The translations under genes and the position numbers were made by a program. Below the pieces are notes generated by a model that worked only from the letters and a program-made list of their open reading frames with translations, did not search any database and was not told the origin of the DNA. A DNA stretch of 64,000 nt from assembly GCA_019057475.1 (NCBI GenBank), contig DXJO01000006.1, positions 194,327 through 258,326 of the forward strand, in the 5' to 3' direction. Numbering within the stretch: the stretch's first letter is position 1; each line of letters opens with the position of its first letter. Shown here in pieces: positions 34,680 to 49,001 of this stretch. Source of the stretch: Candidatus Thorarchaeota archaeon (GTDB lineage: Archaea; Asgardarchaeota; Thorarchaeia; Thorarchaeales; Thorarchaeaceae).

Positions 34680-36671
34680 GTGATTCCCACCTGTTATGAT
34701 AGGGCGTGGGATGCAATGATGAATGACAGGTCAAAAGAATCGCAGCTTCTTCTAGGTCTATTGGCTATCCTAATGCTTGTAACCTCATTGGTCCCGTTTG
34801 CACAGCAAATTCCACCTACGAATTTAGACATATCAAAAGGACAGACTGAAGGTTCTAGTCCACAGGACAAATTCATCCCTTCTTATATCACCCATGATCC
34901 CATTACGATTACCTCAAATGCGGATTTTGTATCTCAGGGTTTTTCGGGTAGCGGGACAGCAGAAGAGCCGTTTGTGATTTCAGGTTATAACATAACAACA
35001 ACAGAAACATGTATCTCCATTCAAGACACTGACGCTTACTTTGTCATTCGTGACTGTCTACTCACAGGAGGGTCATCAGGCCATGGTATTAGTGGCATTA
35101 GATTGCACAATGTGACCCACGGGGAGACACGAAATAATACCATCAGTCAAAAGGAATATGGTGTGTACCTCTCTTACTCCTCGAACAACAATGCGGTGGT
35201 GAACAACACCATATCTGATAGCGATTATGGTGTGCTTCTCTTTTATGGCTCACGCAACAACGTGATGGTGAACAACACCATCTTGGGAAACCTAGTCGGT
35301 GTGTACTTGTATAGATCCTTTGACAACACGTTATCATCAAACATCATGGTGAACAATGGAGTCCTCATTTCTGGTAATGCAGTGGAATATTGGCGGCATA
35401 ACATCACTACTGACAACTTGGTGAACGGAAAGCAGTTGGGTTATTTCTGGAACTGCACCGGTGTAGTCATTGACGGGGCCCAATACGGTCAGGTAATCCT
35501 TGCAAATTGTACTGGGATGGCTGTGGAGGACGGTGTGTTTAGCAACGCTTCGGCGGGGTTTCTTCTGGGGTACTCGTCATACTGCAGTTTGACGAATAAT
35601 ACACTATCAGGAAACTACTATGGCGTGCACCATATTTTTTCCTCGAATAACACATTGATGAACAACACAATCTCGGGAAACTATGATGGTGTGTACCTCT
35701 ATTATTCCTCGAACAACACAATAGTGAACAACACCATTTTAGAAAACTCAGATTGTGGCGTGTATTTGTGGGCTGTGTCAGAAGGCAACCTCTTCTACCT
35801 CAATGTAATTGCCTATAACGCTTATGAGAATGCTCATGACAGTGGAACTGACAACCACTGGAACTCCACCGGGATGGGAAACTACTGGTCTGACTATAAT
35901 GGTATTGGTGTGTATTATGTCACAGGGCCTACAGGTCCCATCGACTACCACCCCTTCATGTACCCACCTGATACCGCTCCACCAATAATCGACCACCCTG
36001 CAGACATAAGTTATGAAGAGGGAACAACTGGCAATTTCATCTTTTGGACTCCTAGTGATACCCATCCCTTTCATTATGTGATCTACAGGAATGGTACAGA
36101 GGTGGCATCCGACAGCTGGGATTGGATCTTCATTGGTATAAACATCGACGGACTGAGCGTAGGTGTCTACAACTACACGATTGTAGTGTATGACACTTCG
36201 GGGAACTATGCCAATGATACTGTTTTTGTCACAGTTATTGAAACCATCGAACCAACGATCGACCACCCTGCAGACATGGATTATGAAGAGGGAACAACTG
36301 GTCATAGTATCACCTGGACATCTAGTGATGAACATCCCTCACATTATGTAGTCTACCGGAATGGCACACAGGTGGTTTCTGAGAGTTGGGACGGGAGTTC
36401 CATCACGGTGAATGTTGATGGTCTGGGCGTGGGAGTCTACAACTATACGATTGTGGTGTATGACACCTCGGGGAACTGTGCCAGTGACACTGTTTTTGTC
36501 ATTGTACCACCACAAACGACCACAAGTACAACAACGACCACAACATCCACGACTACCACAACTCTTGATGAACCGGGTACATTTGACTACGCTACAATCA
36601 TAATCATAGTATCAGCTGGGGCTGTGCTAATCATAATTATCATCATAATCCTGAAAAAACGTGGTGATTAA
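34680..36671 (+). CDS. NosD-like beta-helix surface protein with two tandem Ig-like modules and C-terminal TM anchor
   Basis: 663 aa; NNTISGNYDGVYLYYSSNNTIVNNT repeats; IDHPADxxYEEGTTG modules; Thr/Ser stalk, TM, LKKRGD. Confidence 0.88.
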   Translation: MIPTCYDRAWDAMMNDRSKESQLLLGLLAILMLVTSLVPFAQQIPPTNLDISKGQTEGSSPQDKFIPSYITHDPITITSNADFVSQGFSGSGTAEEPFVISGYNITTTETCISIQDTDAYFVIRDCLLTGGSSGHGISGIRLHNVTHGETRNNTISQKEYGVYLSYSSNNNAVVNNTISDSDYGVLLFYGSRNNVMVNNTILGNLVGVYLYRSFDNTLSSNIMVNNGVLISGNAVEYWRHNITTDNLVNGKQLGYFWNCTGVVIDGAQYGQVILANCTGMAVEDGVFSNASAGFLLGYSSYCSLTNNTLSGNYYGVHHIFSSNNTLMNNTISGNYDGVYLYYSSNNTIVNNTILENSDCGVYLWAVSEGNLFYLNVIAYNAYENAHDSGTDNHWNSTGMGNYWSDYNGIGVYYVTGPTGPIDYHPFMYPPDTAPPIIDHPADISYEEGTTGNFIFWTPSDTHPFHYVIYRNGTEVASDSWDWIFIGINIDGLSVGVYNYTIVVYDTSGNYANDTVFVTVIETIEPTIDHPADMDYEEGTTGHSITWTSSDEHPSHYVVYRNGTQVVSESWDGSSITVNVDGLGVGVYNYTIVVYDTSGNCASDTVFVIVPPQTTTSTTTTTTSTTTTTLDEPGTFDYATIIIIVSAGAVLIIIIIIILKKRGD

Positions 36672-36752: not shown

Positions 36753-37124
36753 ATGTGCTACTACGACTTTTCACGTATTACAAGCCAATATAGCGAGAAG
36801 GGTTACCCTTCTAACTATTCTTGGCTGGAGAATTATGCCGTGTCGAAGAAGGCAGAACTGAAGAATAAGCTCTTCAAAGGCTTAACACCGCATGATATTC
36901 TGACGTGGGAAGAGGAGAAGATGCGATACCAAAGAAAACAGGGCAGGAAAGTCACTGACCTTGAGTTTCTAAGACATCTGATGATGTACGCATCTCGACC
37001 TGTGATTTCTAGGAAAGAAGGCGTATCCGGCTACCTGACAGGGCAAGGTCCGATCTATGATAAAACTGGAAGTCTGCTAAGTCGGCATAGATCCCAGAGC
37101 AGCAAGCCATCACAGAAGGCATAA
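36753..37124 (+). CDS. hypothetical basic protein
   Basis: 123-aa ORF directly upstream (9 nt) of the 435-aa ORF, same strand. Confidence 0.6.
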   Translation: MCYYDFSRITSQYSEKGYPSNYSWLENYAVSKKAELKNKLFKGLTPHDILTWEEEKMRYQRKQGRKVTDLEFLRHLMMYASRPVISRKEGVSGYLTGQGPIYDKTGSLLSRHRSQSSKPSQKA

Positions 37125-37133
37125 ATTCATAGG

Positions 37134-38441
37134 TTGAATGGAACACGCGACACGTTGAAGGGAGCTCTCGCATTGGCTGACCATAACATCCAAGCTATAT
37201 TACTGATGGACAAAGGTGGCATCCCGCTTTTCTTCATGAAGCTGGATCCGAAAGTCCTTGATATTGATCCAATGCTAGTGTCAGGATTCTTCACAGCGAT
37301 TCGGAGTTTTTCTAAGGAGGTAATCGAAAAAGGTGCAACGCAGTTCCAAGTTGACTATGGCGCACGGTTATTCAATATCACCTCCGGGAAGAAAGCAGAT
37401 CTCCTAATCGTCAGTCTTGGAAAACTGCAGGAGCGATTCGGACCTGTTATGACATCGATGCTCAAGGAATTCGAGAGCAAATGGCTCAAGGGCAAGAGCG
37501 TTGAAAAGATAGATTCCATGGACATTCACACTTGTTTTCCCAAGTTCCGTGAGAGTATCATTCACCGACTAACTTCTGGACGGATATCCATCTCATGGAT
37601 TCCATTCCTCGTCAGCTCTGATGGTGAACAGTCACCCGACCTGACAAGCCCTATCTTGTCCCATATCGACGGGGTGCGCACTTTGGAACTCATTCAGGAA
37701 CAGAGTGGGTTTCCAAGAGAAGAGGTTATTGAGGAGATATCCCGTCTTTGGGTGATAGGAGCAGTTGCGTTTCGCAGAATCCTGGACACAAGAGACATTA
37801 TAGCTTCAACGTCCAGACTTGACCCACTGCTGCAGTCCTCATCTGCGGAAAGAGAAGAGCTGAAACGAAATCATCCGGATATCGCAGTTCTGCTTCCTCG
37901 GCTATCTGGTATGTTTGACGGAAGGAGAACTGTGGAGGAAATCCTGAACGCGCTTGAAGGCCAACTCGAAAGGGAAGCTTTGGTTGATGCTATAGAAACC
38001 CTTCTTGACATGCAAGCAGTAGAGCCGCTATCACCTGAGAGGAGACGAATTCTACTCGCAAAGGAAGCAATGGATATAGCCATTAGAGTTGCAGAGAAGG
38101 TGTATTCTTCCGGCGAAATGACCAACGCGCTGCAGTCTTCACTGACCATGGGTTCTGCGCCAGAAGTCGTGGGGGAGATTAGATTGGTGGATAACAAATG
38201 GTCTGTCGAGTACGATTCCAGACTTCTTGAAGGCCTCGACCCCAGACGATTGATGGACCTGTATGCCGACTGGATGAAGCTGCTTGCTCAATTCTCAGCC
38301 GCTCTTGGAAGAAAGAAGTTGAAGCGATTCGTGGAAACCTTGACTCAAGCTTATGAAGTGTACCTATTGAACCGCTATTCCTCTCAAGACCTCAGAGGGT
38401 TTGAAGAGTTCTCATTCTGGCTGGAGCTGATCAACAAATGA
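37134..38441 (+). CDS. sensor/winged-helix-like regulatory protein (N-terminal roadblock/longin-like candidate)
   Basis: 435 aa; paralogous along its length to 47709..49001 (SGFFTAIRSFSKEV / AGFVSAMTSFMGEL; FDGRRTVEEIL / LDGRTPLVSVF). The fold assignment is inference. Confidence 0.75.
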   Translation: MNGTRDTLKGALALADHNIQAILLMDKGGIPLFFMKLDPKVLDIDPMLVSGFFTAIRSFSKEVIEKGATQFQVDYGARLFNITSGKKADLLIVSLGKLQERFGPVMTSMLKEFESKWLKGKSVEKIDSMDIHTCFPKFRESIIHRLTSGRISISWIPFLVSSDGEQSPDLTSPILSHIDGVRTLELIQEQSGFPREEVIEEISRLWVIGAVAFRRILDTRDIIASTSRLDPLLQSSSAEREELKRNHPDIAVLLPRLSGMFDGRRTVEEILNALEGQLEREALVDAIETLLDMQAVEPLSPERRRILLAKEAMDIAIRVAEKVYSSGEMTNALQSSLTMGSAPEVVGEIRLVDNKWSVEYDSRLLEGLDPRRLMDLYADWMKLLAQFSAALGRKKLKRFVETLTQAYEVYLLNRYSSQDLRGFEEFSFWLELINK

Positions 38442-38767
38442 ATCAAAATGAAACCGGTCTTCAAGAGATGGTCAGTATACTTGGTAGACGAGGGCAAACC
38501 ATCTACGGCAGACAAAGCATTGTGGAAGCCTGTACCAAAGCAGGTGTCATACTCATCGACACTCCTGATGACGAGCGATACGATGAGAATAGTCGAAAAT
38601 CGTTGGAGCGCTTCTTGCTAGAATACTCAAAGCTGGGTCCAGCTGCCAGATTGACGCTATTGATTCTCTCAAAACAATATGAAGCCACGTTGCCTGAGGA
38701 ACTTGCTCGCAAGAAGAAGAGCTTGGTTGACATTGTGAGCCTGCTCTCAGACTTTATGAACCAGTGA
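38438..38767 (+). CDS. hypothetical protein, translationally coupled
   Basis: 109 aa; start overlaps the previous stop (ATGA, 38438-38441). Confidence 0.68.
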   Translation: MNQNETGLQEMVSILGRRGQTIYGRQSIVEACTKAGVILIDTPDDERYDENSRKSLERFLLEYSKLGPAARLTLLILSKQYEATLPEELARKKKSLVDIVSLLSDFMNQ

Positions 38768-38821
38768 GTTGTCCGTAACATTGAACTAGGTGTAGGACGC
38801 TAGGAAGGCTTGGTATTCGCC

Positions 38822-39334
38822 ATGAGTCCATCATACTTGTTTAAAATCGTTACAGTAGGCGGAGCGGCCGTGGGAAAGACCTCGATAATTCTGCGTTATA
38901 CAACGGGGAAGTTTCGCGAATACTATTCCCCTACGCTGGGAGCAGATTTCGCCATTAAGACAATGGAGTTAAATGGCAACAGGGTCAAGCTTCAAATTTG
39001 GGATTTGGGGTCCCAAGATTTCCTAGGAGGCGTTCGAGCGGGATTCTATCCAGGGTCAAAAGGCGTGCTCTTTATGTACGATGTTACTTCCAGAGAGAGC
39101 TTTGAGGAATTGACCAAGTGGAAAAAGGAAGTTGACTCACACCTCAAGGGATACGAACGTCTTATCGTGGCCAATAAGACAGATCTCAAGGATGAGCGAG
39201 TTGTGTCAAAAGCAGAAGGCAAGAAGATTGCAGAACGTTTCGGTGGAGCCTATCTCGAAGCCTCAGTGAAGCTAAACGAAAACGTGGACGACAGCTTCAG
39301 CGAAATGGCTAAGATGGTCCTCGATGCGCGATAA
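38822..39334 (+). CDS. Ras/Rab-superfamily small GTPase
   Basis: G1 GGAAVGKTS, switch I T (YYSPTLGADF), G3 WDLGSQ, G4 ANKTDL, G5 EASVK. ATG at 38822 is the likely start of ORF 38810..39334. Confidence 0.92.
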   Translation: MSPSYLFKIVTVGGAAVGKTSIILRYTTGKFREYYSPTLGADFAIKTMELNGNRVKLQIWDLGSQDFLGGVRAGFYPGSKGVLFMYDVTSRESFEELTKWKKEVDSHLKGYERLIVANKTDLKDERVVSKAEGKKIAERFGGAYLEASVKLNENVDDSFSEMAKMVLDAR

Positions 39335-39559: not shown

Positions 39560-40351
39560 GTGGTATACTATCCTAACAGGCATGTGGAATATTCTTGTCT
39601 TCTAGGTGTACTTGGAGGACTGCCGTCGTTGACAAGAACAGATCCAGAAGATCTTGACAAGCTGTTCAAGGCCCTTGGTCACATTACTAGAAGACGCATA
39701 TTGCGGCTTTTGGCACAAACCCCAAGATACCCATATGAGCTAAGCAAGCTTCTGGAGCTAAACAGACGAGTGGTGCTGAAGCACTTAGACGCACTGCAGG
39801 ACGCAGCTCTCGTAGAACGCGAAGCGGGTGACAGTGATCTAGGTCCGGACAGGATATATTACCGCCTAAAAGCAAGTTTCGGTCTGTCAACTACAATATC
39901 GCCAAACGCATTCCTGATGCGATTCACCCAAAGGCAGCATCCTGCCGCACTTGCTTCACATCCAAGCTTTGTCATACGCGACACAGATTCTGATGTGAAG
40001 GCTGTACGTAGACTCCTTGGGGAGTTAGACAAGACGCACAAGCAACTGAGCGCTATTGACGAGGAGAGAATGCGCCTTGCGTCCATTCGTGCGGAGATAA
40101 TTCGACGCATTGAAGGGGTAATGAACGAGTGTAAGTGGGATCGAGAGAGCTGTCAGCGTGTGAGGGCGCTCATTAACCCAGTTCGCATGAGCGTTCCTGT
40201 TGAAACGACAACAGGAAAGGATCCGTGGTCAGAGTCGATTCGTGAGGCGCTAAACCTGTTTGAGAAGATGTTCAGTCTGCCAAGAAAACCGAGGGACCTA
40301 GAGAAGAAGGATGACCTGACTGAGAAGGATGTACCAATAGAATTCGAGTGA
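39560..40351 (+). CDS. ArsR-type winged-helix transcriptional regulator
   Basis: LDKLFKALGHITRRRILRLLAQTPRYPYELSKLLELNRRVVLKHLDALQDAALVEREAG. Confidence 0.85.
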   Translation: MVYYPNRHVEYSCLLGVLGGLPSLTRTDPEDLDKLFKALGHITRRRILRLLAQTPRYPYELSKLLELNRRVVLKHLDALQDAALVEREAGDSDLGPDRIYYRLKASFGLSTTISPNAFLMRFTQRQHPAALASHPSFVIRDTDSDVKAVRRLLGELDKTHKQLSAIDEERMRLASIRAEIIRRIEGVMNECKWDRESCQRVRALINPVRMSVPVETTTGKDPWSESIREALNLFEKMFSLPRKPRDLEKKDDLTEKDVPIEFE

Positions 40352-47708: not shown

Positions 47709-49001
47709 CTAGACTACTGTGTCCATTAGGTACGAGCTCCAGATTGCGCGACAGCGTTTCCTTATGCCTGCTAGTAGGTACTTGGCGCTGAGCGGTCCGG
47801 CATCGTTTGATAGCTGGTCCGCCACCGCGAGAATCAGGAACTCCACTGCGTCGCATATGTTATCCAAATCTTCTGGCGTCATGGTTTCATCGAGTTGACA
47901 TCTAACAGCCATGTTGTCTTGGAGCTTAATCCTTCCAACCCATGGATGCATCTCAATCCCTCTGTCTTGGCCTGTGAAGAAGTAGTTCGTAGCATCCGAG
48001 GAACTTCTCACCTTAACACATGCTCGAACGAGTGCAGAGAGGACACACTCGTTGGCAAGAAGTAGTCGCCTCTCAATTGATGCTCTCTGTAAGTAGCCTT
48101 TGTTAACCAAGTTGCCAAGTTCATAGAGTACAGAACTTGTTGTCCAAAGATTCAGCTTCTCGAAAACAGATACTAGTGGAGTGCGGCCATCAAGGGTGGT
48201 TATTATTCTCAAGACCTGCAGAGAGTTTCTCAGGGGGTTCTCGCGACTTAGCAGAATGCCTGACGACTTCTCTGAGGTCAAAAGGATATCATCATCTGAT
48301 GGCACATAGCTCAGATGAATGGCATTATTCCAACGAGCCATAGATACTAGATCCTCTACCTCTCGCATTGGAAGATCTTGCGCTTCAGCTATCTCTGACA
48401 ATGATTGGCCGCTCGTTGCTGAATGCAAGAACTTTGTTATCTTGAAAGCCATGCTGGGCAACTCGTAGTGTCCAGAGGTGTCATATCTGCGCGCATTCTT
48501 TAGAATGATCGAGCGTTCTGTCAGTCTATCTCCCAGGAATGTTCTCCTCACGAATTGGTCAAAGTCCTTGAATAGATGGCTTTCGATTCCATCATCGTGT
48601 TTCAGACATTGGAAGCTGTCTTCAAATTCCATCACGACACGTCTAAGCTTGCTCCGCCCTTCATTGGTTTCTCTCGAAACTGCAAGAACTCCTGTTGTCC
48701 AGTCCCCAACCTCTACTAAGAGTGTGGAGCTAGACCCAAATTCTGTCTTCCACTGGGTCTGCTCTGAACCCGTAAGCTCGCCCATGAAACTCGTCATAGC
48801 CGATACAAAACCTGCGAGAATCTGGGGGTCCTGTTCCCCCGAAACAAACTCATGCGAATAGGGAGCAATCCCCGTGAGCTTGTTGAGGATGAAGAGTACC
48901 TTCTCGTTGGATATCTCCGAGTAATCAGATGTCGTTGGCTCAACTGCGTCGTCTAATTGCGGACGCGATGAAGCACTGGGTTGTTCTGAGCCTTCAGTCA
49001 C
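47709..49001 (-). CDS. sensor/winged-helix-like regulatory protein, paralog of 37134..38441
   Basis: 430 aa; alignable N-terminal module, two winged-helix-like segments (LDGRTPLVSVFEKL; SIERRLLLANE) and C-terminal module. Confidence 0.78.
   Translation of the reverse strand: MTEGSEQPSASSRPQLDDAVEPTTSDYSEISNEKVLFILNKLTGIAPYSHEFVSGEQDPQILAGFVSAMTSFMGELTGSEQTQWKTEFGSSSTLLVEVGDWTTGVLAVSRETNEGRSKLRRVVMEFEDSFQCLKHDDGIESHLFKDFDQFVRRTFLGDRLTERSIILKNARRYDTSGHYELPSMAFKITKFLHSATSGQSLSEIAEAQDLPMREVEDLVSMARWNNAIHLSYVPSDDDILLTSEKSSGILLSRENPLRNSLQVLRIITTLDGRTPLVSVFEKLNLWTTSSVLYELGNLVNKGYLQRASIERRLLLANECVLSALVRACVKVRSSSDATNYFFTGQDRGIEMHPWVGRIKLQDNMAVRCQLDETMTPEDLDNICDAVEFLILAVADQLSNDAGPLSAKYLLAGIRKRCRAIWSSYLMDTVV

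Follow-up and report, generated by a model that had tools for sequence, protein, structure and literature searches.

A Rab/Ras-like small GTPase in a conserved Thorarchaeia operon with an NPRL2/NPRL3-like protein and its companion

The window analyzed here is a stretch of 64,000 nucleotides from a Candidatus Thorarchaeota archaeon (contig DXJO01000006.1 of assembly GCA_019057475.1). It contains four co-directional open reading frames on the + strand that encode proteins of 123 aa (gene A), 435 aa (gene B) and 109 aa (gene C) and a small GTPase (Table 1), located where an earlier note on this DNA had placed them. The window's genome (G000, contig C29) falls in the same genus as Thorarchaeota MAGs, in keeping with the Asgard setting assumed in that note. 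The ATGA overlap of B and C described in the note is also present (C starts at 38438, B ends at 38441). This overlap is confined to the window's genus; in other genomes B and C are fused, separated by a short gap or overlapping in another way. For the GTPase, the start common to relatives, ATG at 38822 (170 aa, MSPSYL), is most likely the correct one, rather than TTG at 38810 (174 aa). Comparison with two relatives from the same genus indicates purifying selection on all operon genes (dN/dS 0.08-0.22). Just upstream of the operon (34680-36671, +) lies a gene for a surface-like protein of NosD/beta-helix type, which contains repeated Ig-like units as well as a Thr-rich stretch.

Table 1. Position and description of the operon genes, their domains and motifs, and neighboring features in the window.
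Feature	Position	Strand	Description
Gene A	36840..37124	+	~94 aa (123 aa in the listed ORF, 36753-37124); family unknown; accessory, lineage-restricted
Gene B	37134..38441	+	435 aa; NPRL2/NPRL3-like, with a longin domain, a pair of winged-helix units and a helical C-terminal region
Longin-like domain of B	37182..37487	+	~aa 17-118; AF2 model, fold matches
Two winged-helix-like units of B	37665..38030	+	~aa 178-226 and 245-299; model secondary structure
Gene C	38438..38767	+	109 aa, helical, no known family; obligate companion of B
Ras/Rab-like small GTPase	38822..39334	+	170 aa; Pfam Ras, PDB Rab10, orthologue alignment
GTPase G3 motif WDLGSQDF	38999..39022	+	Ser codon 39011-39013 at DxxG Gly position
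ArsR-like winged-helix regulator	39560..40351	+	Neighbor in window's genus, L117, G112; not core
Distant B paralogue	47709..49001	-	430 aa; alone, without C, GTPase or ODP

The first gene of the operon differs from the others in its distribution. Its listed start is probably too far upstream: the conserved part begins at a GTG near 36840, and because relatives carry stop codons upstream of this codon, a protein of 94 aa is more plausible than one of 123 aa. Gene A is under purifying selection (dN/dS 0.10-0.18), and together with the ArsR-like gene it accompanies the operon only in the window's genus, at locus L117 and in genome G112. The earlier note had listed the 123-aa gene together with the other three. 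Outside the window's genus, however, the gene is confined to two related genomes, and we ruled it out as a core part given this restricted distribution and the lack of conservation of the 123-aa start. In G112 (L182:9239-11228) the genes for A, the GTPase and the ArsR-like protein are still adjacent and B and C have been lost; in this one genome, the GTPase persists without B and C.

The remaining three genes form a conserved neighborhood. A scan of named genomes yielded 49 loci, 39 of which have the order B-C-GTPase, which excludes chance association and answers the proviso in the earlier note that its reading would fail if the genes were not conserved together. In 7 of the 49 loci, B is followed by a metallo-beta-lactamase-fold protein (ODP) and then by C, and at three loci (two of them near a contig end) neither a GTPase nor an ODP partner is seen. 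A GTPase and an ODP never occur together at one of the 49 loci. Several sets can be present within one genome; G023, for example, has two sets with a GTPase and one with ODP. In some loci C and the GTPase are separated by a large gene whose product has a hydrophobic or signal-like N-terminus (419-455 aa at L085, L094 and L096; 856 aa at L033).

The tie between B and C is closer still. C was found 40 times among 119 Asgard genomes, in all 40 cases with B, and in 22 loci B and C are a single open reading frame with C fused to the C-terminus of B. On these counts, C depends on B as an obligate companion. Neither a Pfam nor a PDB match was obtained for C, and its part of a fused B-C model contains helices.

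Protein B has no Pfam family above the cut-off anywhere in its family. When its profile was compared with the PDB (hmmsearch), the only significant matches were NPRL2 (E 7e-7) and Npr2 (E 0.0016). The AlphaFold (AF2) model of the window protein (pLDDT 85, pTM 0.85) has a longin-type domain, with the order beta-beta-alpha-beta-beta-beta-alpha, followed by two winged-helix units; the C-terminal part is helical. The N-terminal sensor-like module and the winged-helix-like repeats that the earlier note had described in the 435-aa protein thus both have a counterpart in the predicted structure. In a Foldseek search with this model, all 11 matches at E < 1e-3 were GATOR1/SEAC chains of NPRL2/NPRL3 size, aligned over 344-492 columns (best E 1.5e-6). 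TM-scores to these chains are low (0.21-0.29), so the placement of the domains differs between B and the GATOR1 chains. MglB, roadblock and Ragulator folds rank after GATOR1/SEAC and cover the longin part only, over ~100 columns.

At the family level, the commonest Pfam hit is a weak, sub-threshold match to HTH_NPRL3 (8 of 20 B members); some members also have sub-threshold matches to PqqD and TrmB. The cut-off of Pfam NPR2 was reached in none of 99 genomes, and the sole sub-threshold match (E 6e-4) is a B protein. We therefore rejected membership of B in Pfam NPR2 and did not file it as an NPRL2 member. Since two independent methods, profile and fold comparison, agree, B can be labeled NPRL-like: by these predictions it is remotely related to NPRL2 and NPRL3 of GATOR1 and is not an NPRL2 orthologue. 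Members of the B superfamily occur in 144 of 147 Asgard genomes, frequently in multiple copies, and the window's genome carries, besides the paralogue within the window (47709-49001), a further one at G000:C29:14645.

The gene that completes the operon encodes a GTPase of Ras/Rab type, in agreement with the earlier assignment: it matches Pfam Ras (E 3e-46, 157 bits), and its best PDB matches are Rab10 (E 9e-40) and Rab8. The G1 (GGAAVGKT), switch I (SPTLG, with its Thr) and G4 (NKTD) motifs are normal, and the Gln of switch II is kept. Nothing follows the G domain in this protein of 170 aa, which has neither a C-terminal (prenylation) cysteine nor the C-terminal roadblock domain of the Rag type. 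Its G3 motif departs from the DxxG consensus, as it reads DLGS, with the motif WD[LM]GSQ in the family as a whole. The 41 orthologous GTPases in the tree form a single clade, and every one of them has Ser in place of the DxxG Gly. The sister of this clade is a stand-alone GTPase of the same genome with WDLAGQ, in which AGQ is kept, and all other GTPases of the window's genome with a readable motif have Gly at this position. Searching 147 Asgard genomes for the DNA pattern WDxGSQ[DE]F gave matches in 29, all from the window's family (f1), and none for the reversed control pattern. Of the 39 sites, 37 adjoin B; the other two are at a contig edge and in G112, where B and C are lost. An extra B-linked copy in G098 reads WDLGSQAF. 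In Ras, a residue other than Gly at the corresponding site, G60, hampers the GTP-driven closing of switch II, and the G60A variant forms a tight complex with its GEF and does not switch.

The protein found in the place of the GTPase at other loci belongs to PF19583 (E 1e-50 to 1e-53), and its nearest structure is the oxygen-binding diiron protein 6qrq, the Treponema denticola ODP (E 7e-27), an oxygen sensor in chemotaxis of that bacterium (PMC7666581). The metal-ligand motifs HQDPD, PYxHF, FSSD and PQHGS are conserved in 13 sequences. Sets with the order B-ODP-C or ODP-C-B occur in five Asgard families (f1, f17, f18, f21 and f22), the last of which includes MAGs named Heimdallarchaeota; at the window's own locus, ODP is absent and the GTPase is encoded instead.

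In a tree of B rooted on its paralogues, the GTPase-linked sequences form one clade (99/99), within which the fused B-C forms are again a single clade (100/99). The ODP-linked sequences occupy the lower, paraphyletic branches, with moderate support at some nodes (bootstrap 83-90). Because the ODP grade lies below a single GTPase-linked clade, the tree indicates that ODP is the older partner and that the GTPase was recruited once; it places the ODP linkage as ancestral and the GTPase linkage as derived. Positions of B that distinguish GTPase-linked from ODP-linked copies include F33/L, M35/QL, S237/T, A385/RTN and R421/DE, and the split is clean at those in the longin domain, with Phe33 in the GTPase set vs Leu in the ODP set, and Met35 vs Gln or Leu. 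The last 20 residues of C contain 9-12 Lys/Arg in ODP-linked copies (13/13) vs 2-6 in GTPase-linked ones, and the basic tail is also absent from fused C; on these counts, it was lost after the partner swap.

A functional linkage between B-C and the GTPase is well supported, and we favor, with somewhat better than even confidence, the following account. B and C would form a conserved signal-reading unit of two proteins, often in one chain, on an NPRL-like longin/winged-helix scaffold, that reads the state of the one partner encoded beside it. In its ancestral form, the input would be oxygen or redox state, received through the ODP-type di-iron protein. In one Thorarchaeia lineage, ODP would have been replaced by a Rab/Ras-like GTPase, with Ser fixed at the DxxG position at the same time, so that at the window's locus the input would be the nucleotide state of the GTPase. 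The GTPase most probably docks on the longin platform of B, as the Rags do on NPRL2/3 and MglA does on MglB. Its Ser60 switch would be a modified one in which the GTP-driven closure of switch II is weakened; as substitutions of this Gly in Ras interfere with that closure, the GTPase may depend on B-C to adopt or to leave its active state. We infer the physical binding, the direction of the signal and the effect of Ser on nucleotide cycling from these comparisons. A single-chain model of B-C with the GTPase, obtained by reading through the stop codons of L101 (SMTZ1-45), has a pTM of 0.56, with the GTPase poorly modeled and no predicted interface.

The NPRL2/NPRL3 heterodimer is a GAP for RagA. 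Since B resembles these proteins, the suggestion in the earlier note that the operon encodes a GAP, GEF or effector set is plausible by analogy. The complex prediction that the note proposed as a check showed no interaction in the model described above, with its poorly modeled GTPase. In its GAP version, B (with C) would act on the GTPase through a hairpin arginine, R78, as NPRL2/NPRL3 does on RagA. Besides the likeness by profile and fold, the retained catalytic Gln of the GTPase fits this reading, as does the sequence YGAR78LF of B at the hairpin that matches the one holding Arg78 of NPRL2 (YSR78NALLF, checked in the sequence), a residue described as an arginine finger (PMC8534245). However, the hairpins were paired by secondary structure and not by residue-level structural alignment, and Ser at DxxG is expected to impair GTP hydrolysis. 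Moreover, position 78 is Arg in 35 of 39 GTPase-linked copies but His in the other four, and Arg is kept in 5 of 6 ODP-linked copies that have no GTPase beside them, so R78 is not GTPase-specific. Given this distribution, we did not accept R78 as a proven arginine finger, and we consider the GAP reading unlikely.

Alternatively, B-C could be a GEF, with the longin platform opening the nucleotide pocket, as in Mon1-Ccz1 and TRAPP for Rabs, and the Ser60 GTPase open and prone to exchange. The behavior of Ras G60A allows that Ser60 could favor the exchange complex, and longin dimers are a common platform of Rab GEFs (PMC8534245). On the other hand, the nearest relatives of B by profile and fold are NPRL2/3, on the GAP side, rather than Mon1-Ccz1 or TRAPP, and the single-chain model predicts no interface; we regard this reading as quite improbable.

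The earlier note also linked the set to gene regulation, in line with B being a winged-helix transcription factor under the control of either the GTPase or ODP. The two winged-helix units, the sub-threshold TrmB and HTH matches of some B members, the basic tail of ODP-linked C and the ArsR-like gene next to the operon in the window's genus would all suit such a role. However, the better family match is the HTH of NPRL3, a protein-contact module, and the winged-helix units of NPRL2/3 form protein contacts. In addition, GTPase-linked C lacks the basic tail, and the ArsR-like gene is not conserved with the operon beyond the window's genus and two relatives. We found no positive evidence for DNA binding by B and rejected its reading as a DNA-binding regulator; the proposed link to gene regulation is not borne out, and a transcription factor controlled by either partner is very doubtful. 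That the genes are mere neighbors kept by operon inertia, with no joint function, is highly improbable: inserted genes in a few loci and the GTPase of G112 without B-C would agree with it, but 39 linked loci, several complete sets in single genomes (e.g. G023), the restriction of Ser60 to the B-linked lineage, the B-C fusion and the exchange of partners at the same site do not.

The signal-reading unit that we favor is best compared with GATOR1/SEACIT, in which NPRL2/NPRL3 (Npr2, Npr3) work with Rag/Gtr. Similar to these, B combines longin and winged-helix domains over most of its length, and is encoded next to its putative partner, a Ras-superfamily GTPase. In contrast to GATOR1, no DEPDC5/Iml1 is seen in the Thorarchaeia operon, B stays below the Pfam NPR2 cut-off (99 genomes), the GTPase is Rab/Ras-like and lacks the roadblock domain of Rags, and there are an additional protein C and an alternative partner, ODP. 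MglA/MglB, a bacterial polarity module with the roadblock GAP MglB, is similar in that a GTPase is encoded with a roadblock/longin-type partner and that MglB matches the longin part of B by fold. However, MglB is a single domain, whereas B has winged-helix units and C, and the operon GTPase matches Rab/Ras rather than MglA.

Within the Asgard archaea, the operon GTPase is matched by Thor-Rab 7ezb (E 1e-36), and the combination of small GTPases with longin/roadblock regulators is shared with the described Rab-, roadblock- and TRAPPC3-like proteins (PMC10933270). For MK-D1, that study reports that genes of small GTPases as a rule do not share an operon with those of roadblock, longin or TRAPPC3 proteins, and it judged gene order to be of no help in matching GTPases to regulators (PMC10933270). 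The Thorarchaeia operon, with a GTPase-longin linkage conserved across a family, is a clear exception to this pattern. Asgard genomes encode tens of small GTPases without assigned regulators; with one of them tied to a conserved, NPRL-like pair of partners, a cognate set can be tested directly. NPRL2-like longin domain proteins are already among the listed Asgard signature proteins (PMC9834061), and the operon, which is real and conserved, is a variant of a known longin-GTPase theme. Among the papers open to searching, we found none that describes the operon, protein C or the Ser60 clade, or that associates ODP with longin proteins in Asgard archaea.

The first reading of this locus did not include the fusion of B and C, the replacement of the DxxG glycine by Ser or the use of ODP as an alternative partner. 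It is unusual for a near-universal switch residue to change from Gly to Ser and for the change to be fixed precisely in the lineage that is linked to the partner. The replacement of an oxygen-sensor protein by a GTPase in one genetic slot offers a rare view of how a GATOR1-like scaffold could gain GTPase control. GATOR1 is a nutrient regulator of eukaryotes, and the Asgard group comprises the archaea to which eukaryotes are related. It is conceivable, though on balance improbable, that an oxygen/redox ODP with an NPRL-like B-C is an old Asgard device from the same stock as GATOR1, which Thorarchaeia converted to GTPase input by recruiting a Rab-like protein, its switch remodeled for this role through the Gly-to-Ser change. 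If true, the link of a GATOR1-type longin scaffold to a GTPase would represent a partner exchange outside the eukaryotes, either parallel or ancestral.

The ODP of the putative ancestral triad belongs to the same family as that of T. denticola (TDE2498, with the receptor TDE2496) and has the motif residues conserved, but its Asgard partner is the NPRL-like B-C pair and not a chemoreceptor. The ODP/B/C sets are a candidate for an oxygen-sensing system of the Asgard archaea in its own right. ODP together with an NPRL-like B and a small C is seen at L119-L123, L128, L129, L160, L162, L170, L188 and L189. At L188 (4673-5983; family f18), transposase-like open reading frames lie directly upstream of the ODP-C-B set, whose gene order is unlike that of the other families.
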